DNA from: a virus
Length of the DNA: 53,806 nt
Virus record (IMG/VR): IMGVR_UViG_3300042402_003976
Location: 1 to 53,806 of that record
Direction: 5' to 3' (one strand)
Part shown: positions 13,335-32,354 of the stretch, in pieces
How positions within the stretch are numbered: the stretch's first letter is position 1
How the letters are laid out: each line of letters opens with the position of its first letter
The notes under the pieces: generated by a model
What the model was told of the DNA's origin: nothing
Database searches by the model: none
What the model saw: only the letters and a program-made list of their open reading frames with translations
Position numbers and translations under genes: made by a program

Positions 13335-13587
13335 TAGATTCCAGGAAGATTATGAGCGATATCGCACAGCCATCGACACAATGCCTGATGGTGCAGCTAA
13401 ACAAGAATCTCAACAACTATTGAATAAACTTGTTGCAGAAATAAAAAAATTAGATAGCATGCATATGGAAATGATCTACAGTCGTCAGCTACCTACCATG
13501 GGCAGTGAAATGAAACAAGATATCACAGCTATAAGAAAAAAATTAGAAACCAAACTCAGAGACTGGGCACAAGCGCAGCAAAATTAA
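13309..13587 (+). CDS. Small coiled-coil protein
   Basis: 92 aa, not recognised. It is almost entirely helical with charged heptads (about 10-55 and 66-90), no Cys and no membrane segment. GGAG lies 8 nt before the ATG, inside the end of the preceding gene. It is the last gene of the rightward block; its TAA overlaps the stop of the opposing fibre gene. It could be an assembly chaperone or a virion component, but nothing in the sequence decides. Confidence 0.7.
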   Translation: MSSLLQKSSRFQEDYERYRTAIDTMPDGAAKQESQQLLNKLVAEIKKLDSMHMEMIYSRQLPTMGSEMKQDITAIRKKLETKLRDWAQAQQN

Positions 13588-15253: not shown

Positions 15254-15261
15254 TATTTATC
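15254..15261 (-). promoter_or_regulatory. Late promoter of the cupredoxin-like fibre gene
   Basis: GATAAATA on the minus strand, with predicted start near 15248 and a leader of about 12 nt. It overlaps the end of the subtilase gene. Confidence 0.6.
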
Positions 15262-17294: not shown

Positions 17295-18794
17295 TTAATG
17301 TAAATCTACCCAAACACCATTAGCTCTGCCTTGGAATTTGTTCGAAGTTGTATTGTAAATCATGTCGCCATTAACGGGTATCAACAGATCTCTTGCTGCA
17401 GATGTAAAAGATGCCATTTTTAACGGACTTGCCGTTATTTCCACACGAGTACCAGCTGTTAATTGTATTTCATTGTCTGAAAAAAGTTCAGGTGTTCCAG
17501 ATCCCTGACTTGAAAAATTACCGGTTAATATAATATCTCTCACAGTCAATCGTGATGCAACATCGACACTGTTGTCTATCACAAGATTATTTTGAACTGT
17601 TACATCAGAATCAAAAATTACTGCAGGAGTAAATCTTATAGCAGATGAATCCGATGAATCTATAGTAGTCACAGCAAAGGTAATATTGCCTGTAGTGCCA
17701 CCCCCGATGATTGTAATATTGCCTGAGCTATCAGAGGTTGTGGTAATGCCTCCGGATCCTGTGAATCGAACTGTGCTGCCTGATGGAACTGATCTTAATG
17801 TAGAGTCGTCTGCTTCTACATTTAATGAAAATGCTGCTGCTGATACAGCTGAATTAACAAATGCCGTGGAGGCCAACCCTGTTATTGCTGAGTTTACAAA
17901 TGATGTTGTGGCTAATCCTGCCGAAGCCGGCAATGCCGCCACAGTGGAATTTACATAAGATACTGTGGCTAAATTTGTAGTATCGGGATAAGGAAATACA
18001 GGCTGTATCCACTGTTCAGAATTACCATCGTCAAAATAAACATACAGTATACCAGTATTGGTATCTAACCAAAGATTGCCTGGGCTAGGAGAACTTGGTG
18101 CTGTGTCATCTACAGATACACTAGTACCTCCGCTGCCTGATCCAGGGTCAGCGACAGCTATACTATTGCCCATGGCCAAATGATTCCAACACCAATAGTA
18201 TAACAACGCTGGAGTGGAATTAGTAACTGTGATACGCACCTGCCGTGCAGTGGCTGTGGCAAAGCTGGGGCTGTTATACACTGCCTGTGTAACACTGACA
18301 TTGTCTAGAAAATATTGCACATCTACGAGATAACTGGTGCCACCACCATTATTTCCGCTGAGATTGTCAGCGGAAAAATTCAAGGGATGTTGATTTACTG
18401 TGGTGCCGTTGGCATTGGGAAAGTAGACATTGGTAGGATTGTCCTGAACAAACACATAGGTATATCCCACTACAAAATTCAGTATAGGACGATAAACACC
18501 GTTGAGATTGTATTTGTTGCCTGTATCACCGCCTTGGGGGGCTGTGACTGTTACTTGATATGTGACTGTGGCCAGTTTAGCAACCACAGATTTTGATCTA
18601 AAATCACTGTTTGATACATTAGCAAGATCTCCTCTGGCTAAATTTAGTCCTCCGGTTGTGGACCCGTTGTAAATTCTAAGGGTATTAGCTGTTTGATCGT
18701 AAAAAATTTCACCTCTTAGCCCTGTTTTTCTGTTCAGAAATTCAGCGTCTCTAGGAATTATTCTTACTGCATCGGATACGGGTATTTTGGCCAT
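17295..18794 (-). CDS. Fibre-type protein with internal cupredoxin-like domain
   Basis: 499 aa. Residues ~1-60 form a small N-terminal domain (FYDQTANTLRIYNG). Residues ~75-215 look like a cupredoxin: paired beta strands, His136 in NQHPLNF, and Cys202, His205 and Met208 in YYWCWNHLAMG, giving the His-Cys-His-Met set of type 1 copper proteins. Then come short STVAALP / SAITGLAS repeats and a beta-rich C-terminus ending in a DMIYNTTSNKFQG--NGVW motif, a tip module found in several fibres here. A late promoter lies at 18819-18826. It is the first gene of a leftward group with the protease and the second cupredoxin-like fibre. Confidence 0.8.
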   Translation of the reverse strand: MAKIPVSDAVRIIPRDAEFLNRKTGLRGEIFYDQTANTLRIYNGSTTGGLNLARGDLANVSNSDFRSKSVVAKLATVTYQVTVTAPQGGDTGNKYNLNGVYRPILNFVVGYTYVFVQDNPTNVYFPNANGTTVNQHPLNFSADNLSGNNGGGTSYLVDVQYFLDNVSVTQAVYNSPSFATATARQVRITVTNSTPALLYYWCWNHLAMGNSIAVADPGSGSGGTSVSVDDTAPSSPSPGNLWLDTNTGILYVYFDDGNSEQWIQPVFPYPDTTNLATVSYVNSTVAALPASAGLATTSFVNSAITGLASTAFVNSAVSAAAFSLNVEADDSTLRSVPSGSTVRFTGSGGITTTSDSSGNITIIGGGTTGNITFAVTTIDSSDSSAIRFTPAVIFDSDVTVQNNLVIDNSVDVASRLTVRDIILTGNFSSQGSGTPELFSDNEIQLTAGTRVEITASPLKMASFTSAARDLLIPVNGDMIYNTTSNKFQGRANGVWVDLH

Positions 18795-18831: not shown

Positions 18832-20394
18832 TTAATTGTTATAGATATCCGGCAAATGCCACTCAACCCCACGTCTCGGGATGAATTTTGGTGTTTGAGA
18901 TTTTACTATGTCAAAATATTCATCTAGATTATAGTGTGTTAATTGTGTGGTTTCTGCAAACATGGACAACCTATCCAGTCTTCTTACAGCATCATTGACC
19001 AACTCCGGAGTTAGATGTCTGGCTGCTACTTCTGAAGTTAATTGCCCAGTTCCTACTAGTATGTAGCACCAAATCAACCAATTAGCACAGCCAGGATAGA
19101 TAGGAAAATCAAATTTAGTAGGCATCTTTGTCTTGCACATGTCGCGTAGATTGGCTGCAAATTCAGTTTCTATCGCACCGCTAGAAATATATTTCCAGAA
19201 ATCACTGTCTTTTCTTCCTCCAAGATAATGAGAAACAAGAAAATCTTTAAAGTCATCAAACATGGTATTCATGCGTTTGTTGTAAAATTTCATAGCTGCG
19301 GGATTTACAGTGTCCTCCGCTGTGTTTTTTAGATATTCAAAGGTCAATGCACCTAATTGCTTGATTGTTGAGTGAATTGATGTGGCTTCTAGAGGTTCAG
19401 CAAATGCAGCACACAGTCCTATGGCTAGACAATTTTTTACCCATGTGTTTTCTAGTCTGCCAGTGTCGAATTTAAAGTGTGTTAACGGAGTTACTTTTTT
19501 ACCTAGAGTTTTTTCTATTTCTTCGTGGGCCTGGTCTGCAGTGATAAAATCATCGCAATATACATACCCGCATCCTTTTCTAGTTTGGACTCCTGCTTCC
19601 CAATACCAACCAGAAGATTGTGCCCATGCCACACTGTATGGTTTTGGAGTTTCATTTGGTTCATAGTTTTCAAAAAATGGTATGGCTGCATTCACTGGCA
19701 GATGTTTTTTGTAACTGATCCATTTTGTGCCAAGTTTATTCATTATAACTCTGCTGAATCCCGAAGCATCAATAAAAAAATCTCCAGATATTGTTTGATG
19801 GTCTTCTAGCAACAAAGAAGCCACATGTCCGTTTTCGTGTAAATTTACATCTAATATTTTTTTATCAATCAGTGAAATATTTGCTGATTTGAGAGCGGTC
19901 TTTTCTAGATACTTGGCAGTGAGTCTAGCATCCATATGAAACCCATAAGTGCTGATTTCTACCTGCTGTGTAATTCTGTTTATAGGAGAAATGTTTTTTT
20001 CATACAGATTCCCATAGAAAGAACCTAGATGCATCTTGTCAGGATGGTTGGCACACAAAAACGCAGTGATGGCATCTGGTAAATGCAATCCAGTCATTGT
20101 GCCATCGATCGGACCAAAATATTCATGTCCTTTTTTAGCAGTCCAGTCTTTGTGCAGTATTCCATATTTGGGCATGGCTGCTGTTTCTCGAAAAAATTCT
20201 TCGGGAACTATGCCAAGATCACCATATCGTCCTACCACAAGATCCATTAATTCTCCAGTCACGCCTTCACCTGCACCCAGCACTCCAATTTGCGAAGATG
20301 CAATCACAGTGACTGTGTGGCTTGGATGATTTTTTCCTATCATGAGTGCAGCTATCCAGCCGGCTGTTCCGCCACCAACCACAATAATATTCAT
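18832..20394 (-). CDS. Flavin-dependent (tryptophan-type) halogenase 1
   Basis: 520 aa, close to the usual ~510-540. Such enzymes use FADH2, O2 and halide to make hypohalous acid, which reaches the aromatic substrate through a Lys. Seen here: FAD motif GGGTAGW (7-13), GAGEGVTG (40-47), the candidate catalytic Lys76 in MPKYGI with Trp84, DASGFSR (209-215), and EPLEATSI with Glu336. The halogenase signature WxWxIP is altered to Trp263-Tyr-Trp265-Glu-Ala-Gly. AAGGGAT precedes the ATG. The base composition resembles the flanking late genes, unlike the AT-rich genes beyond it. No flavin reductase is seen nearby. The substrate is unknown. Confidence 0.9.
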   Translation of the reverse strand: MNIIVVGGGTAGWIAALMIGKNHPSHTVTVIASSQIGVLGAGEGVTGELMDLVVGRYGDLGIVPEEFFRETAAMPKYGILHKDWTAKKGHEYFGPIDGTMTGLHLPDAITAFLCANHPDKMHLGSFYGNLYEKNISPINRITQQVEISTYGFHMDARLTAKYLEKTALKSANISLIDKKILDVNLHENGHVASLLLEDHQTISGDFFIDASGFSRVIMNKLGTKWISYKKHLPVNAAIPFFENYEPNETPKPYSVAWAQSSGWYWEAGVQTRKGCGYVYCDDFITADQAHEEIEKTLGKKVTPLTHFKFDTGRLENTWVKNCLAIGLCAAFAEPLEATSIHSTIKQLGALTFEYLKNTAEDTVNPAAMKFYNKRMNTMFDDFKDFLVSHYLGGRKDSDFWKYISSGAIETEFAANLRDMCKTKMPTKFDFPIYPGCANWLIWCYILVGTGQLTSEVAARHLTPELVNDAVRRLDRLSMFAETTQLTHYNLDEYFDIVKSQTPKFIPRRGVEWHLPDIYNN

Positions 20395-20408
20395 AATTAA
20401 TCCCTTGT

Positions 20409-20416
20409 GTTAAATA
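20409..20416 (+). promoter_or_regulatory. Possible late promoter of the rightward oxygenase-halogenase pair
   Basis: GTTAAATA, with a second TCTAAATA element 10 nt further on. The predicted leader is about 25-40 nt. Weak evidence in AT-rich sequence. Confidence 0.3.
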
Positions 20417-20458
20417 TATCTAAATAGTTATCTAAAAAACTACATGTGAGCAATTATT

Positions 20459-21046
20459 ATGATGATACAAAGTATATTTTCTAGTGTATTAATCACTGAT
20501 ACAGTAACGTCGATTGACAACGAAGAATTAAAAAAATATGCTATGATGTTGAGAGAAAAGGACACTGGAGTGATAAAAAGTAATTTTTTAGGATGGCAAA
20601 GTGATACTCTCAGTATACCCAACGAACAAATTCAACTACTAGTAGATTCTATTATACAACGATTATTGGTATTAAAATCTCGGCTTGGATTCAAAGACGA
20701 TGTTAAAATTTACCTAAATAATTTATGGATTAATATAAATCAAAAATCCAGTTTTAACAGGCCACATGTTCATCCAGGATCAACACTGTCGGGAACATAC
20801 TATGTTGACTGCGATACCAACAGCGGAAATCTTGTATTCAAGCATCCTTCGATGGGACATCAATATTCAATCAAGGATGGTGCGATTGACGAGTTTACAG
20901 AATATAATGCAGCGCATTGGTCAGTGAGTCCAGAGATAGGAAAACTAATTATTTTTCCTTCTTGGCTGGAACACTACGTTGAACCAAACGTTAGTGAGCG
21001 AGAAAGAATTTCTATAGCATTTAATATTGAAATTGAAAAAGGTTAA
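20459..21046 (+). CDS. Fe(II)/2-oxoglutarate oxygenase-like protein (HxH type)
   Basis: 195 aa. It belongs to the family in which a conserved HVHPGS--SGTYY segment is followed by GNLVFKHP and a distal IIFPSWLEHYVEPN with a downstream Arg. Candidate iron ligands are His103/His105 and His172, with Arg183 for 2-oxoglutarate. The first acidic ligand of the usual HxD motif is replaced by His, as is usual in this subfamily. The length is typical (about 200 aa). It is followed after 1 nt by halogenase 2 and must be co-expressed with it. The start at 20459 is an ATG-ATG pair with only a weak GAG upstream. Hydroxylation of a side chain is the likely reaction; the substrate is unknown. Confidence 0.8.
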   Translation: MMIQSIFSSVLITDTVTSIDNEELKKYAMMLREKDTGVIKSNFLGWQSDTLSIPNEQIQLLVDSIIQRLLVLKSRLGFKDDVKIYLNNLWININQKSSFNRPHVHPGSTLSGTYYVDCDTNSGNLVFKHPSMGHQYSIKDGAIDEFTEYNAAHWSVSPEIGKLIIFPSWLEHYVEPNVSERERISIAFNIEIEKG

Positions 21047-21047
21047 T

Positions 21048-22511
21048 ATGAAAAAAAGAAAATTTGTTATTTTAGGTGGCGGCACTGCAGGATGGATTAC
21101 CTCTCATTGGATAAGAATGCTTTTTCCTGAGGATGATATCTCTGTAGTCTATAGCGAAAAACACGGAACTATAGGAGTTGGTGAAGCAACAACCCCACAA
21201 ATGGTAGAGTTTTTACAAGGTATTGGTGTAGATCTAAGACATTTTTTAAAAACAGTCGGCGGCACTATTAAGCACGGCATCAGTTTTGAAAACTGGAACG
21301 GTGATGGTAACAAATTTTTGCATCCGTATATAGAAAAAATAGTTGATTTTTCTGTGCCGCCTGTGTTTCAACACTCTGGATGGGATTTTTATAATAAATT
21401 ACTGATCAGCAAAGAATTGCCAATTAACGATTATCTGTATCAAGCCAAATTGGCCTATGAAAATAAAATTGATCTAGGTAACACTGCTTTTGCTGTTCAT
21501 TTTGATACTTATAAATTTGCAGAATATCTAAAAGAATTTGCATTAACAAAAAACATAACCATAATTGAAGGCAATTTTAAATCTGCAGATTTAAACGAAA
21601 ACGGAAATATCAAACAAATAAATCTGGAAGATCGAAGCATCGAGTGCGACTTTGTGTTCGACTGCTCTGGATTTGCAAAACTACTAGTCAAAGAGCTATA
21701 TCAAGAAGAATGGATTTCGTATAGAGAACATCTACCAATGAACAAGGCTATTAGTTTTTGGATAGATCATGACGATGATAAGATTCCGCCATATACCGCA
21801 GCAATTGCAATGAAACATGGGTGGATTTGGAAAATTCCTCTTCAAGAAAGATTTGGCTGCGGCTATGTTTATGATTCTAATTACATCGACGAACATCAAG
21901 CACAACTAGAAGCTGAAGAATTTTTTAAACAGAAATTAAATGTTAGAAAAGTCATAGACATAGATGCTGGTAGGTTACGTAACGCATGGGTAAAAAATTG
22001 TATTGCTGTAGGATTATCTTCTAATTTTATTGAACCACTTGAATCAACTTCCATATGGTTAGAACTTGCACTTTTAAACAATTTAAAACATTTTCTAAAT
22101 GAAATCGATGAGCAAAACGAAAATAGCATACAGTTATTCAACGAAATAATTGGTAATGAAGTAGATGAAAAAATGAATTTTGTTTATCTACATTACATGA
22201 CTAAAAGAAATGACAGTGAGTTTTGGAAAGAATTTCGAGAAAAACATCCGATGCCGCCGAGACTAAAAAAACTATGGCCATACATTCGCGAAAATAATCT
22301 TAGATATTATCAAGTAAACGATGCAATGTGTCCTGCAAAATTTCCCTTGATGAGCTATCTTTGGATTTGCAACGGTTTAGGATTGTTTGAAGATACAGGA
22401 GATATAACCTGTTATGACAGAGTTGAACCAAATCCGGAAATTTATAAACTAATCATCGACGATTATATAAGCAGAGCACCTGATCAAAAAACTTTTTTGT
22501 CGTCTTTATAG
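21048..22511 (+). CDS. Flavin-dependent (tryptophan-type) halogenase 2
   Basis: 487 aa from the ATG at 21048, which has AAAGG 6 nt upstream; an upstream in-frame start at 21027 would overlap the previous gene. This is the most canonical of the three halogenases: GGGTAGW (10-16), GVGEATTP (43-50), catalytic Lys75 in IKHGISFENW, the full signature Trp259-Ile-Trp261-Lys-Ile-Pro264, and FIEPLESTSIW with Glu332. Halogenases with these residues chlorinate, brominate or iodinate electron-rich aromatics; a marine viral member of the family (VirX1) is known to iodinate. It is paired with the oxygenase just upstream. Low GC, unlike halogenase 1. Confidence 0.93.
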   Translation: MKKRKFVILGGGTAGWITSHWIRMLFPEDDISVVYSEKHGTIGVGEATTPQMVEFLQGIGVDLRHFLKTVGGTIKHGISFENWNGDGNKFLHPYIEKIVDFSVPPVFQHSGWDFYNKLLISKELPINDYLYQAKLAYENKIDLGNTAFAVHFDTYKFAEYLKEFALTKNITIIEGNFKSADLNENGNIKQINLEDRSIECDFVFDCSGFAKLLVKELYQEEWISYREHLPMNKAISFWIDHDDDKIPPYTAAIAMKHGWIWKIPLQERFGCGYVYDSNYIDEHQAQLEAEEFFKQKLNVRKVIDIDAGRLRNAWVKNCIAVGLSSNFIEPLESTSIWLELALLNNLKHFLNEIDEQNENSIQLFNEIIGNEVDEKMNFVYLHYMTKRNDSEFWKEFREKHPMPPRLKKLWPYIRENNLRYYQVNDAMCPAKFPLMSYLWICNGLGLFEDTGDITCYDRVEPNPEIYKLIIDDYISRAPDQKTFLSSL

Positions 22512-22524
22512 ATTGTTAATTTGT

Positions 22525-23079
22525 TTATTGATCAAATGTAAAAACTACAACACATCTAGTTTCATTTATTTTACAAAATCGATGTGCATGCAGTGTGTTT
22601 TCAAAAGCACAGGCATGATATTTTTTTGCGTCAAATTCGTGTATGATATTATATTTTTCATCAAACAACAACGTGCTTGCTTCGACGTCATTTAGATACA
22701 TTATCCAATTCCAATGCGGCCATTCGTGGTCGTAGTGTGGGACTGAAAACTCTTTGTTATGATATCCTGTTAGATTAATACCGGCTCTGTAGACTGTTTT
22801 TGGTTTAGTGTAGTTGTTTTCTGTAAGCCATCTTAAAAATATTTCGTAAAAAAAATCATAATATTCACTGTTGATTTTTCCAGATTTATCAAGATCTAAA
22901 TTATTTCTTAAAGAAAGTGCATGACTGAAGAAAAACGTGTTTGCTACTTTATCTGCGATTTCCGGAGGTGGGATAAAATCAGTTTGAAATCCTTGTTTAT
23001 ACCACTTGAATGAGTCCGACAACACAAAACCAGAAATAAATTTTTCTTCATCGAGTGTTAGATTAACCTTGTTATACAT
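22525..23079 (-). CDS. Fe(II)/2-oxoglutarate oxygenase-like protein (HxD type)
   Basis: 184 aa from the third of three consecutive ATGs (23079; 23082 and 23085 are possible). A longer frame to 23202 would add a hydrophobic, Cys-rich N-terminus crossing the promoter region, so I rejected it. The C-terminal half has the double-stranded beta-helix pattern: His115-Tyr-Asp117 in VPHYDHEW, a WNWIMYLND strand, STLLFD, and the distal His164/His166 with Arg175 in CKINETRC. The N-terminal ~90 residues are helical. It faces halogenase 2 tail to tail with a 13-bp gap. AAAGAG lies upstream, and a sigma70-like promoter is seen at 23119-23147. Confidence 0.7.
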   Translation of the reverse strand: MYNKVNLTLDEEKFISGFVLSDSFKWYKQGFQTDFIPPPEIADKVANTFFFSHALSLRNNLDLDKSGKINSEYYDFFYEIFLRWLTENNYTKPKTVYRAGINLTGYHNKEFSVPHYDHEWPHWNWIMYLNDVEASTLLFDEKYNIIHEFDAKKYHACAFENTLHAHRFCKINETRCVVVFTFDQ

Positions 23080-23098
23080 CATCATAAATTCGGATCTC

Positions 23099-23106
23099 TT
23101 TAAATA
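23099..23106 (+). promoter_or_regulatory. Possible late promoter, rightward
   Basis: TTTAAATA matches TATAAATA at 7 of 8 positions; the leader would be about 42 nt before the ATG at 23154. AT-rich context makes chance likely. Confidence 0.3.
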
Positions 23107-23118
23107 AAAAACATACAT

Positions 23119-23147
23119 AGTATATAGTAATCTACAACAAAAGACAA
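23119..23147 (-). promoter_or_regulatory. Sigma70-like promoter, leftward
   Basis: TTGTCT (23142-23147), a 17-nt spacer and TATACT (23119-23124), i.e. 4/6 and 5/6 matches, about 30 nt before the HxD oxygenase start. Confidence 0.45.
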
Positions 23148-23153
23148 CAAAAT

Positions 23154-23789
23154 ATGAACAATATAATGAAACATGATTTGGTAAATTATGGATTTTCTTC
23201 ATGCAAATTATCAGAAGATGATATGATTCCTATCATAAACGAAATCGATGATATAAAAAAGAATTTTCATTCAGCACGCCCTGCAAATTCTTATCTCATA
23301 GGTAATATCGAAAAAGAATTTCTCATGGTAAAATCTAAAGATCACTTAGAGAAATTAGTTCTACCTTTAATAGATCATCACATTAAGAATTACGACTATT
23401 TAGATAGGATTGCAAAAAACTTTCCAGCGCATACGCAAATGTGTTTACAAAATGCGTGGGTAAATTTTCAATCTAAGTATGAATTCAATCCCTGTCATGA
23501 TCACGATGGTATATTTTCTTTTGTAATTTGGACGCATATTCCCTATGATATGGCTACTGAAAAAAATAATGCTCCTGGTAAGGATTCAAGACATAATTTA
23601 GCTGGCGCATTTGAGTTTCTGTATACAAATACATTAGGAGAAATTTTTACTCATTCGATTCATGTAGACAAATCTGTCGAAAATGTTTTAATTTTGTTTC
23701 CGTCAAAACTAAGACATTGTGTTTATCCGTTTTATACCTCGGACGACTACAGAATAAGTGTTTCTGGAAATTTTATTTTAAAAAATTAA
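23154..23789 (+). CDS. Fe(II)/2-oxoglutarate oxygenase-like protein (HxH type)
   Basis: 211 aa. It shares the pattern of the oxygenase at 20459: a strand with LQNAWVNFQ, then P-C-His115-Asp-His117-Asp118-Gly, SFVIWTHIPYD, a body strand (FEFLYTN), and a distal LILFPSKLRHCVYP with His188 and Arg200. An insertion of about 20 polar residues (135-153) separates the two metal-site halves. The start could also be the ATG four codons later. It is 17 nt upstream of the carbamoyltransferase on the same strand, so the two are probably co-transcribed. The substrate is unknown. Confidence 0.75.
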   Translation: MNNIMKHDLVNYGFSSCKLSEDDMIPIINEIDDIKKNFHSARPANSYLIGNIEKEFLMVKSKDHLEKLVLPLIDHHIKNYDYLDRIAKNFPAHTQMCLQNAWVNFQSKYEFNPCHDHDGIFSFVIWTHIPYDMATEKNNAPGKDSRHNLAGAFEFLYTNTLGEIFTHSIHVDKSVENVLILFPSKLRHCVYPFYTSDDYRISVSGNFILKN

Positions 23790-23806
23790 TAACTTAAAAA
23801 ATTATA

Positions 23807-25513
23807 ATGAAAAAAATATTAGGAATACAAAAAGATCATAATGCGGCAGCTTGTTTGTTTTATGATGATGAATTAATTTATTACAATCAAGAAGAAAGAC
23901 TTTCTAGAATAAAAAAAGACAGCGGTCTTCCTATTAAAACTATTCAAGAAATTTCAAAAATTGTTTCTGAAATAGATGTTCTTGTAATTTCTGGGTATGA
24001 TCATTTTGAATCTGAAATTTTTTCTATAATATCTAGTATTCAAAAACTTGGGTTAAAGCTCAGTTCCCAGTTTGTATATGCTCCCTATCACAAAAGTCAT
24101 CACTTGTTTCATGCTGCTAAAGCATTTTATAGTTCTGGGTTTGATACTGCTCTCGTGGTAGTTCAAGATGGAAGAGGGTCTTACTATAATTTGAATAATG
24201 GCGGGTTAGCATTTGAAACCACATCTGTGTTTTCTGTTAGTAGTGATAATAAATTTGATTTAATATATCGAAGATTTTTCACAAACTCTACTGTAAGCGA
24301 CGACACTAAAATAATCTGGGATAATAATTTTACACAACAAAAAATTGATAGGCCGACATATCTTAACAGACAATCTAAATTAGAAATAAGAAATGATTTT
24401 GATGTGGGATTTATGTATGAGGGAACTTCGAGAAGTTTTGGTTTTGACGACGAGGGTGGAAAAATGTTGGGCATGCAATCTTACGGAAAACACAATGATG
24501 CGTTGCCTCAAATCCTAGATGAAAATTTGATATTTAATATGAAAGTATTTAATTTTAGTCGACACAAAAAACATCAAGGTTTTAATCGTTCTGATTATCT
24601 TGCATTGGCTGATCGAGATGCTTGTATTGATTTTATGTTCATGGTTCAAAAAGCGTTTGAAAAAACCGGATTACATTTAATAAACAGCATGCTTGATCAA
24701 ACCAAGAAAAAAAATCTCATACTTACTGGAGGCACGGCATTAAATGTTGTTGCTAATAATTTTTATCGACGTGAATTGCCTGATGACATCGACATATACA
24801 TAGAACCCCTATGCGGTGACGAAGGCAATTGTATAGGTGCCTGCCAGCATTATTACTATGAAGAGAGAAAGTCAGCGAAGGTTAAAAAATCGTTGCCAAT
24901 ATATATTTGCGGGAATACCCCAAAATACGAGTTTTCACTTCAAGAAAACGAAGTTGAAATAGCTGGCATTGATGCAGCAGTTGTTGCTGATCTGATAAGA
25001 TGCGGCCATATTATTGCTCTATTTCAAGGCAAAGGCGAAGCGGGTCCTCGCGCATTGGGAAATCGTAGTTTGCTGTTTGATCCTAGGATAGAAAACGGTA
25101 AAGACATAGTTAATGCTGTAAAAGGTAGAGAGGCGTTTCGTCCGTTTGCCGCAGCAGTGATGTTAGAACATGTCGATGAATGGTTTAATTTAGGAAAACT
25201 ATCTCAGTCTCCGTTTATGATGTATGCAGTCGATGTAATACAAGATAAATCAGCTCTTATTCCTTCAGTGGTTCACGTTGACGGAACCTGCAGAGTGCAA
25301 ACTGTTACTGTTGATCAAAATCAAAATTTATACAACATACTGTCTGCGTTTAACAAAGTCACCGGAGTCCCAGTGTTACTTAATACTTCATTTAATCTTG
25401 CAGGCGATCCTATTGTCGAAACCATTCACGACGCTATCAATTCTCTACGTCGATCTAAGATTGAATACTTGTATTTGCCCGAAATTAATAAATTGCTTTA
25501 TATAAAGAATTAA
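23807..25513 (+). CDS. O-carbamoyltransferase (NodU/CmcH family)
   Basis: 568 aa, the usual length. The family transfers a carbamoyl group from carbamoyl phosphate, through carbamoyl-AMP, to a hydroxyl of a sugar or antibiotic. Visible motifs: KDHNAAACL and NQEERLSR near the N-terminus, SHHLFHAAKAFY with VVVQDGRG, GGKMLGMQSYGK, the Kae1-like LILTGGTALNVVANN, and in the YrdC-like C-terminal part GEAGPRALGNRSLL (about 411-424), VKGREAFRPFAAAV, HVDGTCRVQTV and PVLLNTSFN-AGDPIV. It appears complete. No clear Shine-Dalgarno precedes the ATG. A hydroxylase just upstream could make the hydroxyl that is carbamoylated, but that is inference. Confidence 0.93.
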   Translation: MKKILGIQKDHNAAACLFYDDELIYYNQEERLSRIKKDSGLPIKTIQEISKIVSEIDVLVISGYDHFESEIFSIISSIQKLGLKLSSQFVYAPYHKSHHLFHAAKAFYSSGFDTALVVVQDGRGSYYNLNNGGLAFETTSVFSVSSDNKFDLIYRRFFTNSTVSDDTKIIWDNNFTQQKIDRPTYLNRQSKLEIRNDFDVGFMYEGTSRSFGFDDEGGKMLGMQSYGKHNDALPQILDENLIFNMKVFNFSRHKKHQGFNRSDYLALADRDACIDFMFMVQKAFEKTGLHLINSMLDQTKKKNLILTGGTALNVVANNFYRRELPDDIDIYIEPLCGDEGNCIGACQHYYYEERKSAKVKKSLPIYICGNTPKYEFSLQENEVEIAGIDAAVVADLIRCGHIIALFQGKGEAGPRALGNRSLLFDPRIENGKDIVNAVKGREAFRPFAAAVMLEHVDEWFNLGKLSQSPFMMYAVDVIQDKSALIPSVVHVDGTCRVQTVTVDQNQNLYNILSAFNKVTGVPVLLNTSFNLAGDPIVETIHDAINSLRRSKIEYLYLPEINKLLYIKN

Positions 25514-25514
25514 A

Positions 25515-26237
25515 TTATTTTTTAATAAGAAAAGTATTGTTTGATAAAAATTTATTTCTAATTTCTAATTCTTTTATAGATTCATTGTAGTCTAGTATTT
25601 CTATTTCTTTTAAATTTAATTTTGCAGGAATAATTTGAAACAATGGAGTTCCGGCAGGAATAGTAAATTCTTTATTGCATTGATTGATTTTAATTATAGC
25701 ATTTATATTATAAAACTCCCCCGATTCTAACAATCCGTGAACTGCTGTAAACTCTGTTATATCAGGGTAAGGAATAGGAATGAACATTAATTGCCAACCT
25801 TTGGGTATAGACACAGACCACGGAAGTGTGATTTTAATCAATGATTGCGCTTGTTCACTAGACAGCGGAACAGCATGTGCTGGCTCTTCCCCCGAAAACC
25901 AAGAAATCAGTCGTTTATCGAAATTTCGATCTTTGAGATAGGAAAAAATTCCTTGAGGAATATGACATTCGAATCTCCCATCTCCTAGCGGCCTAATAGT
26001 TAGATCAAACCACGACTGCACGATATATCCGTGTTTCATAATTGGAAACACTCCTGGACACTTAACAATTCCGGTTATTTGTTCATACGCACCTTTTTTC
26101 GATGCCATTTCTTTAAATGCTATTGCTGATTCTCTAACCCAATTAAACTTGTAAGAGCTAGCTGGAATAATGGGATACGTCTCCTTGATTTCCGGAAGCT
26201 CACAGTAAAATTTTATTTTATCTTTTTTAAATATCAT
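25515..26237 (-). CDS. Unrecognised protein of the halogenase island, type A
   Basis: 240 aa, no family named with confidence. It is beta-rich and soluble. Notable parts are VKCPGVFPIMKHGYIVQSW (about 58-76), an IPKGWQLMFIPIPYPD segment (about 143-158), VHGLLESGEFYN and a final FTIPAGTPLFQIIP. This CPG--- / IP-G-- layout is faintly echoed by the protein at 27438, suggesting distant kinship. No catalytic triad or metal site stands out. Its ATG directly follows the stop of the oxygenase upstream (TAA-ATG), and it is the last gene of the seven-gene leftward operon. It faces the carbamoyltransferase with a 1-bp gap. Confidence 0.75.
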   Translation of the reverse strand: MIFKKDKIKFYCELPEIKETYPIIPASSYKFNWVRESAIAFKEMASKKGAYEQITGIVKCPGVFPIMKHGYIVQSWFDLTIRPLGDGRFECHIPQGIFSYLKDRNFDKRLISWFSGEEPAHAVPLSSEQAQSLIKITLPWSVSIPKGWQLMFIPIPYPDITEFTAVHGLLESGEFYNINAIIKINQCNKEFTIPAGTPLFQIIPAKLNLKEIEILDYNESIKELEIRNKFLSNNTFLIKK

Positions 26238-26822
26238 TTACCATACCCATGAAACAAAACTGTATCGAGATCCCGAAGTAATTTGAGTTACTTCATGCGG
26301 ATACATAAAATTACTAGGAAATACCAATACTGATCCTGCTTTAAGTTCAATCTTTTCTTTTTCCCACAATAAAAAATCGCCACCCTCAAAATCTTCGTTG
26401 AGTAGCCCTACGATCGATAGTATCGGAATACCTTTGCGTTCTCCATCAAAGATATCACGGATGTGGTCGCAATGTAATTTCATATTAGTATTTTTGTCGT
26501 ATTTGTGAAATTTTATTGTAGTGTAATCGTGCCAATTTCCGAACCATTGAAATTTTTTATAAAACGATGCAAAGTCAATCAGCACATACTGATGAATTAT
26601 ATTCCATAACATTTTATCTATGTGTTCTTTTTCTTCAGTGTTGGTTCTTGTTTGTAAAAAATCATCACCGACATGTATATAGTCTCCTGAAGTATTATAA
26701 AATTGATGAGTATCCCAAGAAGAAGTTTTTAACGAGTCTATTGCAGATTTACAAAACTCTTTTGAAAATACATCATGGTATACTCTTACATAGTCTTTAA
26801 TATTTGTTGGAAAATTAGTCAT
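26238..26822 (-). CDS. Prolyl-4-hydroxylase-type Fe(II)/2OG oxygenase
   Basis: 194 aa with a clear P4H-like catalytic domain: KLHCDHIRD with His117-x-Asp119, the SIVGLLNEDFEGGDFLLW strands, the AGSVLVFPS turn, His176 in MYPHEV, and Arg186 in TSGSRYSFVSWVW. These supply the two-His-one-carboxylate iron site and the 2-oxoglutarate anchor. The N-terminal ~75 residues are helical, as in PKHD-type hydroxylases. It starts 1 nt after the preceding oxygenase gene and is part of the tight leftward operon. Side-chain hydroxylation of a protein or small molecule is likely; the substrate is unknown. Confidence 0.88.
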   Translation of the reverse strand: MTNFPTNIKDYVRVYHDVFSKEFCKSAIDSLKTSSWDTHQFYNTSGDYIHVGDDFLQTRTNTEEKEHIDKMLWNIIHQYVLIDFASFYKKFQWFGNWHDYTTIKFHKYDKNTNMKLHCDHIRDIFDGERKGIPILSIVGLLNEDFEGGDFLLWEKEKIELKAGSVLVFPSNFMYPHEVTQITSGSRYSFVSWVW

Positions 26823-26823
26823 A

Positions 26824-27441
26824 TTATATAGTTAAATCTGCAGCGTATTCATTGCTACCAAACATTCCTTTAACAAACGCATTGAAGCCTAAAATAATTC
26901 TCGAACTGTTGCTTTGATTTTTATCGACCGAGTGTCTTAACCACGAGGGAAAAATTATCATATCGCCAGTTAACGGAGAATAAGACCACATGTCGGAGTT
27001 AAATTGATTGTAATTTTTTAGATCATAATTAAAAGAAAATTCATTTTTTAATGAAGATTTCTGATAAAAATTTATCTTGCCACAATTTTCCAAACTTTGC
27101 AAATATAGTACACCCGAAATAATACTATTAGGATGATGATGTATGCTATGTTCTTCTCCTGGATCTGATTTTGCTATCCAACTGTTTGTTATATAAAATG
27201 TCTGCGTTGATTGAAAAACATTATCTACAAACTGTTTTAAATGCATTTCGCAAATATCTTTATATTGTTGAAACTCAGGCTTGTCTAAAACTTTTGTATT
27301 TTTTGATACAGAATTTGTTTTTGTTTTTGTTTTTATAAATTCTAAAGTATCAATACACGACAAATTGCCATTTAATGAGTCGATTTCGTTTTTAGAGTAA
27401 TATAATGGAACTGCAAACAAAGGAGTAACATCAAAATTCAT
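26824..27441 (-). CDS. Fe(II)/2-oxoglutarate oxygenase-like protein (HxH type)
   Basis: 205 aa. It opens with PLFAVPLYY, a typical start for this subfamily, then TNSWIAKSDPGEEHSIHHHPNS with His101/His103, SGVLYLQ, a GKINFYQ strand, and the distal MIIFPSWLRHSV with His170 and Arg181 followed by ILGFNAFVKGMFG. It is the fullest match among the three HxH members. Its ATG overlaps the stop of the upstream gene as ATGA, indicating coupled translation. Substrate unknown. Confidence 0.85.
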   Translation of the reverse strand: MNFDVTPLFAVPLYYSKNEIDSLNGNLSCIDTLEFIKTKTKTNSVSKNTKVLDKPEFQQYKDICEMHLKQFVDNVFQSTQTFYITNSWIAKSDPGEEHSIHHHPNSIISGVLYLQSLENCGKINFYQKSSLKNEFSFNYDLKNYNQFNSDMWSYSPLTGDMIIFPSWLRHSVDKNQSNSSRIILGFNAFVKGMFGSNEYAADLTI

Positions 27442-28130
27442 AGTAAGTTTTCTTTTATTTCTTTAAGAATGAGTTTTTTATTTCTAAAAGCCTTGTAATA
27501 ATTTTCTAATGATCTAAGCGGTGAGTTGGTCAACCGAAACCCGTCTTTATTGTAATCTGATAGTTTTTCATTAGATCTAAATTGAACAAAATTAATTTGT
27601 TCGTCGGTGTGAATTCTCATATAAGAATAAATTTCTTCTTTTTCTATTTTAAATTCGTTGTATCTAGCTTTGAGAAAAAATGAAAACTCACTATTTCGAA
27701 ACCATTTTCCTATATTAAATTTGCCGGCAGGAATAAGACACCGTTCGGTTATATTGTTATCTTCTAAGAATGGATATTCGTAAAATGTAACATCTAATGA
27801 TGGCTCTTCAGTAAAAAATATATATCTATTATTAAAAGAAAAAAACTTTTTTTCTAAAGATCTAATAGTTATATGCTCATTAAAAAATTGTTGATTATAG
27901 CTTTCGGTCTTTAAATTACCGTCTTCAATTCTAAAATTATAGTCATATATGGATTTTAAAGCAAATAAATTTTTTAAATTTCCATTAAATGCCGGGCAAT
28001 AATTTAGCAACGATTGTGGTTCTGCATGATTAACTTTATATTTTTGATAAAATCTAGATGCAACACTTTCCGGAGGATGTGCTAGCATCCACTCATTTTC
28101 TAAACAAGCCCAGTATACAGTTATTGCCAT
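27438..28130 (-). CDS. Unrecognised protein of the halogenase island, type B
   Basis: 230 aa, not recognised. It is aromatic-rich (Phe, Tyr, Trp) and soluble, with no membrane segment. Marked parts are VYWACLENEWMLAHPPES (5-22), LLNYCPAFNGNLKN followed by a YDYNFRIEDG strand, FFTEEPSLDV, and CLIPAGKFNIGKWFR. The CPAF and IPAGKF positions recall the CPG and IPKG parts of the protein at 25515. It begins 3 nt after halogenase 3 and ends overlapping the next oxygenase, so it probably works with them, perhaps as a binding or carrier partner. That role is speculation. Confidence 0.75.
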   Translation of the reverse strand: MAITVYWACLENEWMLAHPPESVASRFYQKYKVNHAEPQSLLNYCPAFNGNLKNLFALKSIYDYNFRIEDGNLKTESYNQQFFNEHITIRSLEKKFFSFNNRYIFFTEEPSLDVTFYEYPFLEDNNITERCLIPAGKFNIGKWFRNSEFSFFLKARYNEFKIEKEEIYSYMRIHTDEQINFVQFRSNEKLSDYNKDGFRLTNSPLRSLENYYKAFRNKKLILKEIKENLL

Positions 28131-28133
28131 AAT

Positions 28134-29591
28134 TTAAAAATTATCCCTAACAAGTTTTAAAAATTCTTTATGAGAAAAAGTAATTAAATTTTTATCAATA
28201 TTAAAATGATTCAGAGCAATTTGTTCTGCCTCAGATCTTATTAACGGGTTCAATCTGGCATACTCATCTTTGATGGACTCACGATTAAACAAATTTAATC
28301 CCTCCATTACTAGTATAAAATTAGGGTCTGTAAATAACACATAATCTGATTGCTCGTTAAAATCTTCTTTAATAGGTAATTTGTTTTTCCATGTCTTTAA
28401 TTTATGTTTTAAAGTATTGGGAATCTCTATTGATTTGAGATCTTTCCAAAACATTGTATCGTCTTTGTCTGTCATATAATGTAATGCAACAAAGTCTCTA
28501 ATATTTTCCATAATATCATTGACTGACTTATTATAACTGGTAATTGTGTTATTGTCAAATTTGCTTAAACGATGCATCAATAAAAATGATTGCTGTATTG
28601 ACGTGCCGATGCTACTAGCCTCTAACGGTTCGACAAAATTTGCACTTACACCAATCGCACAGCAGTTTTTAATCCACACTTCTTCAAGACACCCGGGATC
28701 GAAATTGAATTGCTTGTTGACAACTATTTTTTTACCGAGATAGTTTTCTACTTCTTGTTGAGCTTGAGTAGCATCAATGTAATCACTGTCAAAAATATAA
28801 CCATTTCCGTGTCTTCCCCACACTGGGATTTTAAACATCCATCCGTAATCCATAGCTCGGGCCAAAGTCCACAAATTGTATTCTTCCTCATCCTCTGTCT
28901 GAAATGTTATTGCAGATTTCATTTTCAAATATTGACCATACGATTTCCATTTTCCACCCAATTTTGTAATCAACATTCTTTTAAATCCTGTGCTGTCAAT
29001 ATAGAAATCGTATTTGTAATCAAAATATTCGCCGGTGAGATTATCGATATAACCTTGACTGTCTAGATTTACTTCTTTAATTTCGTCCTCAATTATATTA
29101 ATTCCTAATTGCATTGCAATCTTAATTAAAAAATCATTTAACTTGTGTGTGTTGAAATGAAATTGATTAAAAGGATACGCTGTTGGATTATTTAGAAATC
29201 GTTTATCTATTCTATTTTTCCAAAATATTTTTGGAGTAAGCTGGGGATCGGCCTTGGCTATTTGATGTGCATATACATAATGATATTGACCAGTTTTGCT
29301 ATCTAGTGGACTTCCGATACCGTGTAGATAATCTTTTAAGCCCCAATTTTCAAACATTACACCGGATTTATATGTGGCATCAGTTTCTTTAATCAACGCA
29401 TATTGGTCAATGCCCACATATTTCATGAACTCTTTCCAGTGTTCAGTTGACCCCTCACCTACTCCTATAATTCCGATATTTTTTGAATGCACTACATCAA
29501 TTTGAATATCTAGTTTTTTCTTCAAAATTATTGCAGAAATCAAGCCGGCAGTCCCGCCTCCAACAACTAATACACTGTTCACAGATCTCAT
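28134..29591 (-). CDS. Flavin-dependent (tryptophan-type) halogenase 3, variant signature
   Basis: 485 aa from the ATG at 29591, which overlaps the upstream stop as ATGA; a longer frame to 29636 exists but lacks support. Motifs: GGGTAGL (11-17; Leu replaces the usual Trp), GVGEGSTE (43-50), candidate Lys75 in TYKSGVMFENW, the signature Trp251-Met-Phe253-Lys-Ile-Pro256 in which the second Trp is Phe, and FVEPLEASSIG with Glu324. The core is intact, so activity is plausible, but the Trp-to-Phe change could alter the site that suppresses flavin oxidation of substrate. It sits in the middle of a leftward operon with four oxygenases. Confidence 0.9.
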   Translation of the reverse strand: MRSVNSVLVVGGGTAGLISAIILKKKLDIQIDVVHSKNIGIIGVGEGSTEHWKEFMKYVGIDQYALIKETDATYKSGVMFENWGLKDYLHGIGSPLDSKTGQYHYVYAHQIAKADPQLTPKIFWKNRIDKRFLNNPTAYPFNQFHFNTHKLNDFLIKIAMQLGINIIEDEIKEVNLDSQGYIDNLTGEYFDYKYDFYIDSTGFKRMLITKLGGKWKSYGQYLKMKSAITFQTEDEEEYNLWTLARAMDYGWMFKIPVWGRHGNGYIFDSDYIDATQAQQEVENYLGKKIVVNKQFNFDPGCLEEVWIKNCCAIGVSANFVEPLEASSIGTSIQQSFLLMHRLSKFDNNTITSYNKSVNDIMENIRDFVALHYMTDKDDTMFWKDLKSIEIPNTLKHKLKTWKNKLPIKEDFNEQSDYVLFTDPNFILVMEGLNLFNRESIKDEYARLNPLIRSEAEQIALNHFNIDKNLITFSHKEFLKLVRDNF

Positions 29592-30106
29592 ATCGTTGCA
29601 TTGGTCCATTGATAAAACATAAAATTTATAAGACATCTAACTTTTTGGTCTGTACAAGTAGTTCCAGCATGAAGTATGCTATCAAATATTACTAGCCTGT
29701 TTTCTACAGAATCAATTTTAGTTCCATCTTTAAAAATGGTATAACCGTTGTTGGTGTTTATGTAAAAAATAGCAATTTTTCCGTCAAAAAAATCATGATC
29801 AAAATGATAATCGTGAATCACTTGTTCATCTGTTCGAGGCAAGAGATTGGCTTTGATTCTAACAATAGCTGACGGATTCAATATATCTATGATTGGATCC
29901 AACAAATTAATCCAATTACTACACGGACAGTTCTGTTTGTAAAATGTATGTGTAAATTGATAGTTATTTAAATTATCTAATTCTACATGTTCCGGTCTTA
30001 CAATTAGAGAATTAAATGCCCATGTGATATCTGGACCAAGCATGTTTTTTTGTATTTCTATGAATTTATCATGTGGAAGAAAATCATCGAAGATTCTATA
30101 AGTCAT
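29588..30106 (-). CDS. Fe(II)/2-oxoglutarate oxygenase-like protein (HxD type)
   Basis: 172 aa. The C-terminal half shows HDYHFDHDFFDGK with His101-Phe-Asp103, the IAIFYINTNNGYTIFKDG strands, LVIFDSILHAGT with His146, and KVRCLINFMF with Arg157. The N-terminal half has an FDDFLPHDKF opening common in this superfamily. It is one of the shortest members here, close to a minimal beta-helix domain. It begins 2 nt after the upstream oxygenase gene and overlaps halogenase 3, so the pair should be made in similar amounts. Confidence 0.8.
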   Translation of the reverse strand: MTYRIFDDFLPHDKFIEIQKNMLGPDITWAFNSLIVRPEHVELDNLNNYQFTHTFYKQNCPCSNWINLLDPIIDILNPSAIVRIKANLLPRTDEQVIHDYHFDHDFFDGKIAIFYINTNNGYTIFKDGTKIDSVENRLVIFDSILHAGTTCTDQKVRCLINFMFYQWTNATI

Positions 30107-30108
30107 GA

Positions 30109-30759
30109 TTATTTAAATTTCGGACCTAGCACCCACACAACTATAGATTTTCTTATGCCAGCTGTTACAGGAGTTACTCTATGAAGGCTCATAGAAGGAA
30201 ATACAATCACAGTTCCTTTTTTCATTGCAACTGATTCACTTTTCGCTTCATGTCCAAATTGAAAATCACCACCTTGAAAATCTTTTTCTGGTTCATTCAA
30301 TAACAAAGTCAATGACAATTTTCTTGTTTCGAAATATCCGTTAGAAAGAGAAGTACCAAATATTAAATCAGTGTGCCATGTGTAATGCCCTTGTTCTGTT
30401 CCATGATATTCTGAGTATTGGAACTGATCGTAGCCATTTATATCAAAGTTATACCAACGTTCATTTATCTGCTCTATGATATGATTTAATCTTTCAAAGA
30501 TCCATTGGTTTTTGTCGTTAAAATGATGAAACGATACTTTAGATGTTCTAACCGAATCTACAACCTGGGGTTTTACAATAGTCTTATCATTTTCATCTTC
30601 AGCTGCGATACTAGCGGCATCTAATGTGGATGTATCCATCTCGCTACAGATTTTTTCAATTTCTTCATCAGAAAATGCATTTTCCCAAAAACAATAAGGA
30701 TATGTAATTAGTGAACGTTCAGTTGGGTTGTTTGATATTCTTCTGTAATTATAGCTCAT
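30109..30759 (-). CDS. PKHD/P4H-type Fe(II)/2OG oxygenase, first gene of the operon
   Basis: 216 aa from the ATG at 30759; the frame extends upstream only to a TTG at 30789 inside a hairpin, which I rejected. Catalytic motifs: HYTWHTDLIFG with His129-x-Asp131, KLSLTLLLNEP, FQGGDFQFG, GTVIVFPSMSLHRV with His193, and AGIRKSIVVWVLGP with Arg203. This layout fits PKHD-type hydroxylases. An insertion rich in Asp/Glu/Ala (41-60) follows the first helices. It heads the seven-gene leftward operon and carries a 13-bp hairpin just before its start codon, so its translation may be controlled. Confidence 0.87.
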   Translation of the reverse strand: MSYNYRRISNNPTERSLITYPYCFWENAFSDEEIEKICSEMDTSTLDAASIAAEDENDKTIVKPQVVDSVRTSKVSFHHFNDKNQWIFERLNHIIEQINERWYNFDINGYDQFQYSEYHGTEQGHYTWHTDLIFGTSLSNGYFETRKLSLTLLLNEPEKDFQGGDFQFGHEAKSESVAMKKGTVIVFPSMSLHRVTPVTAGIRKSIVVWVLGPKFK

Positions 30760-30819: not shown

Positions 30820-31323
30820 TTACGGTCTTAATGTCCAGCTATTGGTATTTTCGTTATAATCATAAAGATTACCATCAGTTGGATATGCGGGCCTGTTGTG
30901 AACAGGAACCGCCGGAGGAGGAATTTCAACCCACTGTGAGGCCAATTGCACCCATATATAAAGTTTTCCATCTTGAGGCATAGGCACAGGAGGGTTGTAA
31001 CAGCATTTTTCTTCATCAAATATCCAATCAGAAGGACCGCCACTATCTATCCAGGCTTGCTTTCTTCGGTTTTGTGTGGCAGTTTTTTCTTCAGGACTCA
31101 TGGGATAAACATACCATACATCTTTGATCACATCTCCTACCCATTCGTAAAAAACTTCTTTGACTTCATAAGGGCCAATTTTTGGAGGAGGAACCCTAAC
31201 AAATTCAGCCCAAGAGTTTGGAAGATTGTCAAGATCCACAGATGGGTATGCAGTAAGCATATTTTCTCTCGTGATAGGATGATCAATGGGTTTGTTATCC
31301 AACAACTTGATATAGAGTTGCAT
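30820..31323 (-). CDS. Possible fibre assembly or tip protein
   Basis: 167 aa from the ATG at 31323, which overlaps the adhesin stop (TAATG). Residues ~1-65 include MQLYIKLLDNKPIDHPI and NLPNSWAEFVRV, followed by a YEWVGDVIKDVWYV strand and a helix with MSPEEKTA--NRRKQAW. The C-terminal part has two short PPVPMPQDGKLYIW and YPTDGNLYDYNENTNSW repeats of the Asp-Gly-x-x-Tyr-x-Trp kind common in fibre accessory proteins. Its place right after a glycine-rich adhesin recalls fibre chaperones of other phages, but this is inference. Confidence 0.65.
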   Translation of the reverse strand: MQLYIKLLDNKPIDHPITRENMLTAYPSVDLDNLPNSWAEFVRVPPPKIGPYEVKEVFYEWVGDVIKDVWYVYPMSPEEKTATQNRRKQAWIDSGGPSDWIFDEEKCCYNPPVPMPQDGKLYIWVQLASQWVEIPPPAVPVHNRPAYPTDGNLYDYNENTNSWTLRP

Positions 31324-32354
31324 TATAGATCTCCAGTGTTTGTGGACGGAAACGAACGGGTAATTGGAGGGGATCCGACTGTTGCAGATTGTCTTGTGCC
31401 CCAAATAACACGAACTCCGCCAGTGCCGCCGTCACCAGAGCTTGATGGCCACGACGTTCCCGGTCCACCGCCACCGCCGCCGTGTGTTCCGCCGAGGATA
31501 TTATTGGAACTTTCTCCGCTACCGCTCCACGGATTTTCACCGTAATAACCTCTAGTGCCGCCGCTGCCACCGTTGCCACCGCCCCCTGGAGATCCGGTGC
31601 CGTTCCATGGTGTATAGTGTCCGTTGCCGCTAGAACCTTGTCCTTGTAGGCCAACGCCACCACCGCCACCTGTTCCGTATGTTGACGAATATGGCGAGCC
31701 ACCTGAACCGCCGCCACCGTTTGGTGAGGTTCCGCTTTCGCCAATATTGCCGCCTCGGGCAGTATAACCACCGGCACCTCCACCTCCAGCCCAGCTTTGT
31801 GCGTCACCACCAGCTCCGCCACCGTCGCCGATATATCCGCCACCACGCCCATTACCGCTAGGGCCGCCGGTCTGACCTCCATATAACGAACCACCACCAT
31901 ATCCCGCCACAGTGCTAGTGGCTTGGAAATAACTGGTTCCGCCGTTGCTGCCGTCACCACCGCCACCACCCACTACAACAGTATACGCTGTACCGGGATT
32001 CACTGGAATATTATTTTTCCAACCAAGGCCGCCACCTGCGCCTCCGTGCTGTGCCCAATTGTTTGCGCCACCACCACCGCCACCCACCGCCACCACAGCT
32101 ACAGCCGTTACATCAGGAGGTGCTGTCCATGAATATGTTCCCGGTGAAGTATATGCTTGCTGTCCCGGTGCAAAAGTATTTGGCAACACGTCGATACGAA
32201 ACCATTCACCATTTTCATAGACTTCTGTTCTATTAGTTGTGGTGTTATGTCTAATCATTCCAGCTGCCGGAGTTCCTGGTCGTTCCGCTGTGGTGCCATT
32301 TGGCAGTCGTATAAATCCAGTGTCATTGACTGTTGTATTCTTTAAGGTTGCCAT
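31323..32354 (-). CDS. Glycine-rich fibre adhesin
   Basis: 343 aa. The N-terminus carries a shared fibre module (LPNGTTAERPGTPAAG, IRHNTTTN, then EWFRI), followed by a beta domain (TSPGTYSWTAPPDVTAVAVV). From about residue 91 to 300 it consists of Gly-rich runs of the GGGGGG / GGGSGG / GAGGDA type separated by short aromatic loops, the pattern expected of polyglycine type II helix bundles as in gp38-type adhesins. Receptor binding is the likely role. AAAGGAG precedes the ATG. A long overlapping frame of 224 codons is a by-product of the Gly codons and was not called. Confidence 0.8.
   Translation of the reverse strand: MATLKNTTVNDTGFIRLPNGTTAERPGTPAAGMIRHNTTTNRTEVYENGEWFRIDVLPNTFAPGQQAYTSPGTYSWTAPPDVTAVAVVAVGGGGGGANNWAQHGGAGGGLGWKNNIPVNPGTAYTVVVGGGGGDGSNGGTSYFQATSTVAGYGGGSLYGGQTGGPSGNGRGGGYIGDGGGAGGDAQSWAGGGGAGGYTARGGNIGESGTSPNGGGGSGGSPYSSTYGTGGGGGVGLQGQGSSGNGHYTPWNGTGSPGGGGNGGSGGTRGYYGENPWSGSGESSNNILGGTHGGGGGGPGTSWPSSSGDGGTGGVRVIWGTRQSATVGSPPITRSFPSTNTGDL

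Follow-up and report, generated by a model that had tools for sequence, protein, structure and literature searches.

What use might a phage have for three halogenases, seven Fe(II)/2-oxoglutarate (2OG) oxygenase-like proteins and a carbamoyltransferase encoded side by side among its tail-fibre genes? The question is raised by IMG/VR virus record IMGVR_UViG_3300042402_003976, which was analysed over its whole length of 53,806 nucleotides (hereafter, the window). Positions 18832-30759 hold a tightly packed, nearly gapless block of 13 genes, 11 of them enzyme-like and suited to halogenation, hydroxylation and carbamoylation. We read enzyme families, kept catalytic residues, the conservation of the set and its site, and co-inheritance with an adhesin from sequence; enzyme activity, reaction order, substrate and benefit we infer. 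Judged from sequence identities, the enzyme set travels with a Gly-rich adhesin-like gene and its neighbour U3, not with the fibre trunk or the adjoining subtilase. We tentatively read the island, with somewhat less than even confidence, as a tailoring cassette for the receptor-binding tail tip or for a glycan on that tip.

Pfam and PHROGs searches bear out the gene content given in a preliminary description made from the letters alone: three halogenases (PF04820), a single O-carbamoyltransferase, seven genes of 2OG-oxygenase-like proteins and two more genes (U1 and U2) that have no Pfam family. The island genes, followed by their flanks, are:

18832..20394, minus strand: halogenase 1 (Hal1); PF04820, E 4.6e-90; GGGTAGW; catalytic Lys (K) and Glu (E) kept; WYWEAG replacing WxWxIP
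20459..21046, plus strand: 2OG-oxygenase-like a; PF13759, phrog_81; HxH...H...R
21048..22511, plus strand: halogenase 2 (Hal2); PF04820, E 5e-103; WIWKIP; K75, E332
22525..23085, minus strand: 2OG-oxygenase-like b; phrog_274 type, no Pfam family; HxD...H...R; open frame extends to 23202, start most likely near 23085
23154..23789, plus strand: 2OG-oxygenase-like c; PF13759; HxH...H...R
23807..25513, plus strand: O-carbamoyltransferase; PF02543 and PF16861 (Carbam_trans_N and C); phrog_1601
25515..26237, minus strand: U1; phrog_7084; AlphaFold model with a dUTPase-like beta-clip fold
26238..26822, minus strand: 2OG-oxygenase d; PF13640, phrog_61; HxD...H
26824..27441, minus strand: 2OG-oxygenase-like e; PF13759; HxH...H...R
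27438..28130, minus strand: U2; phrog_17480; homologous to U1
28134..29636, minus strand: halogenase 3 (Hal3); PF04820, E 2.2e-91; WMFKIP; K and E kept
29588..30106, minus strand: 2OG-oxygenase f; phrog_274 type, no Pfam family; HxD...H...R
30109..30759, minus strand: 2OG-oxygenase g; PF13640; resembles PKHD hydroxylase/PiuC; start most likely at 30759
30823..31326, minus strand: U3, a W- and P-rich protein that presumably resembles cyanophage fibre-assembly proteins; travels with the island
31323..32354, minus strand: Gly-rich adhesin-like protein (gp38-like); PF21722; 30.6% Gly; travels with the island
32355..33131, minus strand: fibre with a peptidase S74 chaperone domain; flanks the module distally
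17295..18794, minus strand: tail fibre/wedge-like protein; proximal flank; swapped independently of the enzymes
15260..17287, minus strand: subtilase-domain virion-associated protein; adjoins the fibre
13584..15236, minus strand: baseplate wedge/tail-fibre connector-like protein

The preliminary description had staked its proposal on co-occurrence of these genes in relatives, and they do co-occur: near-syntenic islands are present in other IMG/VR contigs (L027, L014/L005, L021 and L022-L025). The gene order in L027 is subtilase, fibre, Hal1, 2OG, Hal2, 2OG, 2OG, carbamoyltransferase, U1, 2OG, Hal3, 2OG, 2OG, U3, Gly-rich protein and S74, and the other contigs carry shortened versions of this ordered set. 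Recurrence of the same order in independent contigs excludes chance open frames. In a second set of contigs (L006-L013 and L016), 8-9 oxygenases and, in most, 4-5 halogenases lie between fibre-type genes; across contigs, islands hold 2-5 halogenases. Bacterial halogenase loci were considered as a source of similar islands and set aside: only 5 of 80 had 2OG matches, all of them weak and none exceeding 30 bits, against 26 of the 28 phage loci. Phage sequences went into the 2OG profiles and the phage loci share ancestry, so the P value of this comparison should not be taken literally. A search for bacterial loci with the U1 family gave 74 pattern matches, 0 of them confirmed, and U3 used as a handle to search IMG/VR returned one weak match only.

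The position among fibre genes also holds well beyond the window, with islands tied to fibre or adhesin genes in many contigs and their active sites kept. This partly supports the preliminary description, which proposed that the enzymes may act on one shared target such as Trp/Tyr-rich fibre proteins, a host surface glycan or a small molecule. When the fibre protein was the sole query against IMG/VR, which avoids selection on halogenases, close relatives were found to carry 0-5 halogenases, several oxygenases, a carbamoyltransferase and U1/U2 beside the fibre and subtilase. Across seven large contigs, all 18 halogenases lie within 20 kb of the fibre gene (6.9 expected at random placement), as do 51 of 63 oxygenases (20.5 expected); neither number arose in any of 200,000 simulations, in a test where several contigs are relatives and their genes are not independent draws.

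Two groups of contigs separate the adhesin from the rest of the fibre region. Where the enzymes are orthologous to those of the window (L027, L014 and L022/L023), the Gly-rich adhesin is 62-71% identical over its full length and U3 is also shared, whereas the fibre trunk and subtilase are 24-51% identical or not reached. In L140, L142, L147, L161 and L165, by contrast, the subtilase is 72-90% and the fibre 59-74% identical to the window's, and within the reach of these contigs BLAST gave no match to the Gly-rich adhesin or U3 and there were no orthologous halogenases. The pattern in both groups indicates that it is the adhesin, not the fibre trunk, with which the enzymes were inherited. The subtilase gene itself is kept beside the fibre in many IMG/VR contigs, and is 88-90% identical in contigs with entirely different enzyme islands.

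Are the encoded enzymes likely to be functional? All three halogenases reach the curated PF04820 score and carry the GxGxxG motif that binds flavin adenine dinucleotide (FAD), and each has residues matching K79 and E346 of PrnA; both catalytic residues are kept in 60 of 61 distinct phage halogenase homologues. At the WxWxIP site Hal2 has WIWKIP, Hal3 WMFKIP and Hal1 WYWEAG. Alignments show that the C-terminal YYxGxE...W motif of the PrnA/PyrH type is replaced in Hal1, Hal2 and Hal3. Structures of PrnA and PyrH show this region reading free tryptophan, and with the motif missing, "tryptophan halogenase" is probably wrong as a label for the substrate of Hal1-3. Recent tandem duplication of one halogenase is ruled out, because in trees the three fall in separate, well-supported old groups, each with orthologues from other islands. 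A search of 21 related records, complete phage genomes among them, gave no match to the flavin reductase family PF01613, extending the earlier report of none in the window; the halogenases therefore probably rely on a reductase of the host.

Halogenases outside fibre regions tend to lose the catalytic Glu, which is replaced by Gln in the third copy of S-RIM44 (L004, 15001-16437), in S-PM2 (L128, 8244-9473) and in CP21 (L139, 6995-8194); in the S-PM2 gene the catalytic Lys is also absent in the frame read. The fibre-adjacent halogenase of DSL-LC01 has Asp at the Glu position. Phage halogenases span several old lineages in the tree, with bacterial relatives among them. One halogenase, 53% identical to Hal2, lies on a Burkholderiaceae metagenome-assembled contig (L048, 1958-3460) that reads as chromosomal, carrying ABC-transporter and regulatory genes; since it nests among phage sequences, a transfer between phage and bacterium has apparently occurred.

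Five of the seven oxygenase-like genes match Pfam families, three of them PF13759 (20459, 23154 and 26824) and two PF13640 (26238 and 30109). Those at 22525 and 29588 have phrog_274, which bears the label "DNA endonuclease V", as their sole match. This label looks wrong, and the family appears to behave as 2OG oxygenases, because H-x-D...H...R is kept in 98-100% of 53 members and the type aligns with the PF13640 type by profile comparison (hhalign 96.5%, E 7e-10). Many phrog_274-type "denV" genes occur in cyanophage records. Types b, d, f and g keep the HxD...H metal triad, and b and f also have a conserved Arg column; the PF13759-type proteins a, c and e carry HxH...H...R where classical enzymes have HxD/E. 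The carbamoyltransferase has both its N- and C-terminal domains, and its relatives in the PDB are novobiocin carbamoyltransferase (NovN), GdmN and TobZ. The two proteins first described as separate unknowns prove to be one homologous family (hhalign E 1.7e-8), which does lack a Pfam assignment. The AlphaFold model of U1 (mean predicted local distance difference test score 80) resembles dUTPases and dCTP deaminase in fold; in the alignment the window's U1 and U2 have lost the dUTPase-like GxVDxD motif that some relatives show, and the pair probably has a dUTPase fold without being active dUTPases.

Under the tail-tip reading, host flavin reductases would supply reduced FAD (FADH2) to three non-redundant halogenases, which would place chlorine or bromine on aromatic groups. 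The seven 2OG/Fe oxygenases would add hydroxyls to side chains or sugars, and the carbamoyltransferase would cap hydroxyls with carbamoyl groups; U1 and U2 may serve as binding or accessory subunits. The likeliest substrate would be the Gly-rich adhesin (31323-32354), its W-rich neighbour U3 or a glycan carried on them. An enzyme block swapped with the adhesin would alter the chemistry of the receptor-binding surface, and with it host range or resistance to host counter-measures. A narrower version, in which the phage halogenates, hydroxylates and carbamoylates its own adhesin, for instance at conserved Trp in the Gly-rich loops, and swaps enzyme sets with the adhesin, we consider unlikely. 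The adhesin keeps 9 of its 13 Trp columns invariant among five relatives, Trp being its best-kept aromatic residue.

Several observations count against modification of the tail tip. To our knowledge, this carbamoyltransferase family acts on small molecules and sugars, not on proteins. Co-inheritance with the adhesin comes from a handful of contigs and may reflect mere adjacency in one recombining block; moreover L140 and some other contigs stop short of the far flank, so that an adhesin not found there is not always absent. Nine invariant Trp are weak evidence, since high conservation is usual for this residue whatever the protein. The flanking fibres, suggested earlier as Trp/Tyr-rich targets, are not generally so (Trp makes up 2.6% of the Gly-rich adhesin, 4.8% of U3 and 1.0% of the fibre trunk), and we dropped this enrichment as a main support. 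Halogenases of S-PM2, S-MbCM6, S-B64, HTVC008M and CP21 lie distant from fibres. The T4 late-promoter sequence TATAAATA has 0 matches within the window and its shorter form occurs at chance level, giving no evidence on timing.

The principal competing explanation, doubtful in our view but a serious contender, is that the enzymes decorate host or capsular polysaccharide or lipopolysaccharide, or make a halogenated, carbamoylated small molecule derived from an amino acid or sugar. The structurally characterised relatives of the carbamoyltransferase have small molecules as substrates, S-SSM7 has heptose and sugar-nucleotide genes mixed in with two carbamoyltransferases, a halogenase and oxygenases, the DSL-LC01 halogenase adjoins a glycosyltransferase, and such a role was predicted for the S-SSM6a cluster (Iyer et al. 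2021, PMC7824862). In the island, however, Pfam and PHROGs detect no sugar-biosynthesis, glycosyltransferase, polyketide synthase, non-ribosomal peptide synthetase or transporter gene, and the island is tightly linked to fibres and to a single type of adhesin. Neighbouring genes overlap or almost abut, with no evident space for a precursor peptide or core synthase, and for want of space a ribosomally synthesized and post-translationally modified peptide precursor within the island was rejected.

We think it quite improbable that the site is simply a fibre-side recombination hotspot gathering unrelated auxiliary metabolic genes with separate targets, such as a chlorinated defence compound, 2OG-dependent host regulation or repair. 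Enzyme sets do differ strongly between contigs whose fibres are 60-74% identical, the halogenases come from several old lineages with some bacterial relatives, and 2OG enzymes are common elsewhere in cyanophages (PMC3037559). Random cargo would nonetheless be expected to vary in kind, and here the kinds hardly vary (halogenase, 2OG oxygenase, carbamoyltransferase and U1/U2), with halogenase sets kept in order as orthologues. Action on nucleotides or DNA, with U1/U2 handling nucleotides and hypermodified bases as the product, would fit the likeness of U1 to dUTPase and dCTP deaminase, and some O-carbamoyltransferases act on sugar-containing antibiotics. The location at fibres, the lack of base-modification genes in the island and the want of a clear dUTPase motif, seen in some relatives, in the window's U1/U2 make this highly improbable.

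We know of no established natural substrate for viral halogenases or for the 2OG oxygenases common in marine phages. Published accounts place these enzymes in auxiliary metabolism, as antibiotic protection, DNA repair or nitrogen sensing; 2OG enzymes were tied to nitrogen sensing (Sullivan et al. 2010, PMC3037559) and a phage halogenase was interpreted as serving antibiotic production (PMC9964418, PMC8940887). Mass spectrometry of S-CREM1 virions is also reported (PMC9964418). The genome evidence instead links a large class of such halogenases and oxygenases to adhesin and fibre genes, and among the papers searched none was found connecting flavin-dependent halogenases with phage tail fibres. 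If virion proteins are halogenated, phage-host recognition would gain a new layer, and such islands would supply enzymes that modify proteins or glycans; if the phage modifies its own adhesin, it would amount to programmed chemical diversification of a virion protein that alters the chemistry of host recognition.

Elsewhere in the window, the tail sheath protein (4545-8069) is unusually long at 1174 amino acids, and a short HNH-endonuclease-like gene lies beside it (8174-8512). The sheath is closest to those of the jumbo phages Atu_ph07, Phosso and PA5oct, which makes "T4-like", the earlier name for this phage, a loose label.

How far does the island depart from known systems? Halogenases follow fibre-assembly genes in syn9, S-RIM44, P-TIM40, S-WAM1, S-SZBM1 and Sf-FP1. 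In syn9 the order is a fibre gene, two fibre-assembly genes, two halogenases and U1, with oxygenases following as far as a gene annotated as ferrochelatase; S-RIM44 has three halogenases, the third outside the fibre region. These regions resemble the window in having one or more halogenases, often U1, and several 2OG genes straight after fibre and fibre-assembly genes, and the syn9-type cyanophage regions likewise keep the catalytic K and E. They differ in carrying one or two halogenases, where the window has three and related contigs up to five, in showing no carbamoyltransferase in the stretches read, and in belonging to a different phage lineage. DSL-LC01 has its halogenase after fibre/collagen genes and before the glycosyltransferase, and S-SRM01 (L130, 360-10570) has a single halogenase between a tail fibre gene and the gp37-gp38 adhesin tip gene.

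Among single enzymes, the cyanophage halogenase VirX1 (PDB 6QGM), which we take to come from phage Syn10, belongs to the same superfamily as Hal1-3 (E 4.6e-48 to Hal2); it was studied alone, whereas the window has three halogenases, and Trp-5/Trp-6-type halogenases outscore it for all three. PrnA, PyrH and RebH share the FAD motif and catalytic Lys and Glu with Hal1-3 and differ in the free-Trp motif. The window carbamoyltransferase has the same two domains as NodU/CmcH-type enzymes (TobZ, GdmN and NovN) and differs from them in its virion-gene neighbourhood.

As to whole clusters, that of S-SSM6a (Iyer et al. 2021, PMC7824862), proposed to decorate capsular polysaccharide or make a secondary metabolite, and the S-SSM7 region both combine, like the window, a halogenase, carbamoyltransferase and 2OG oxygenases in one block. 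The published S-SSM6a cluster names one halogenase against the window's three and adds a HemK-like methylase, a cupin and HAD phosphatases, none of which Pfam or PHROGs place among the window's island genes. The S-SSM7 block (L136, 3087-13347) lies before neck genes and also includes a cysteine dioxygenase; its heptose/sugar genes have no counterpart found in the island. The preliminary description understated the precedents in taking single viral halogenases as the known state, since two copies in some cyanophages, with up to three carbamoyltransferases per phage, were tabulated in 2010 (Sullivan et al. 2010, PMC3037559) and S-RIM44 has three. The set of tailoring enzymes is also less unprecedented than it claimed, given syn9, S-RIM44, S-SSM7 and the cluster of Iyer et al. 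2021. With simpler versions in syn9 and S-RIM44 and the S-SSM6a cluster already described, the window island is not the first of its kind; it is a variant of enzyme clusters already known in simpler form from cyanophages.

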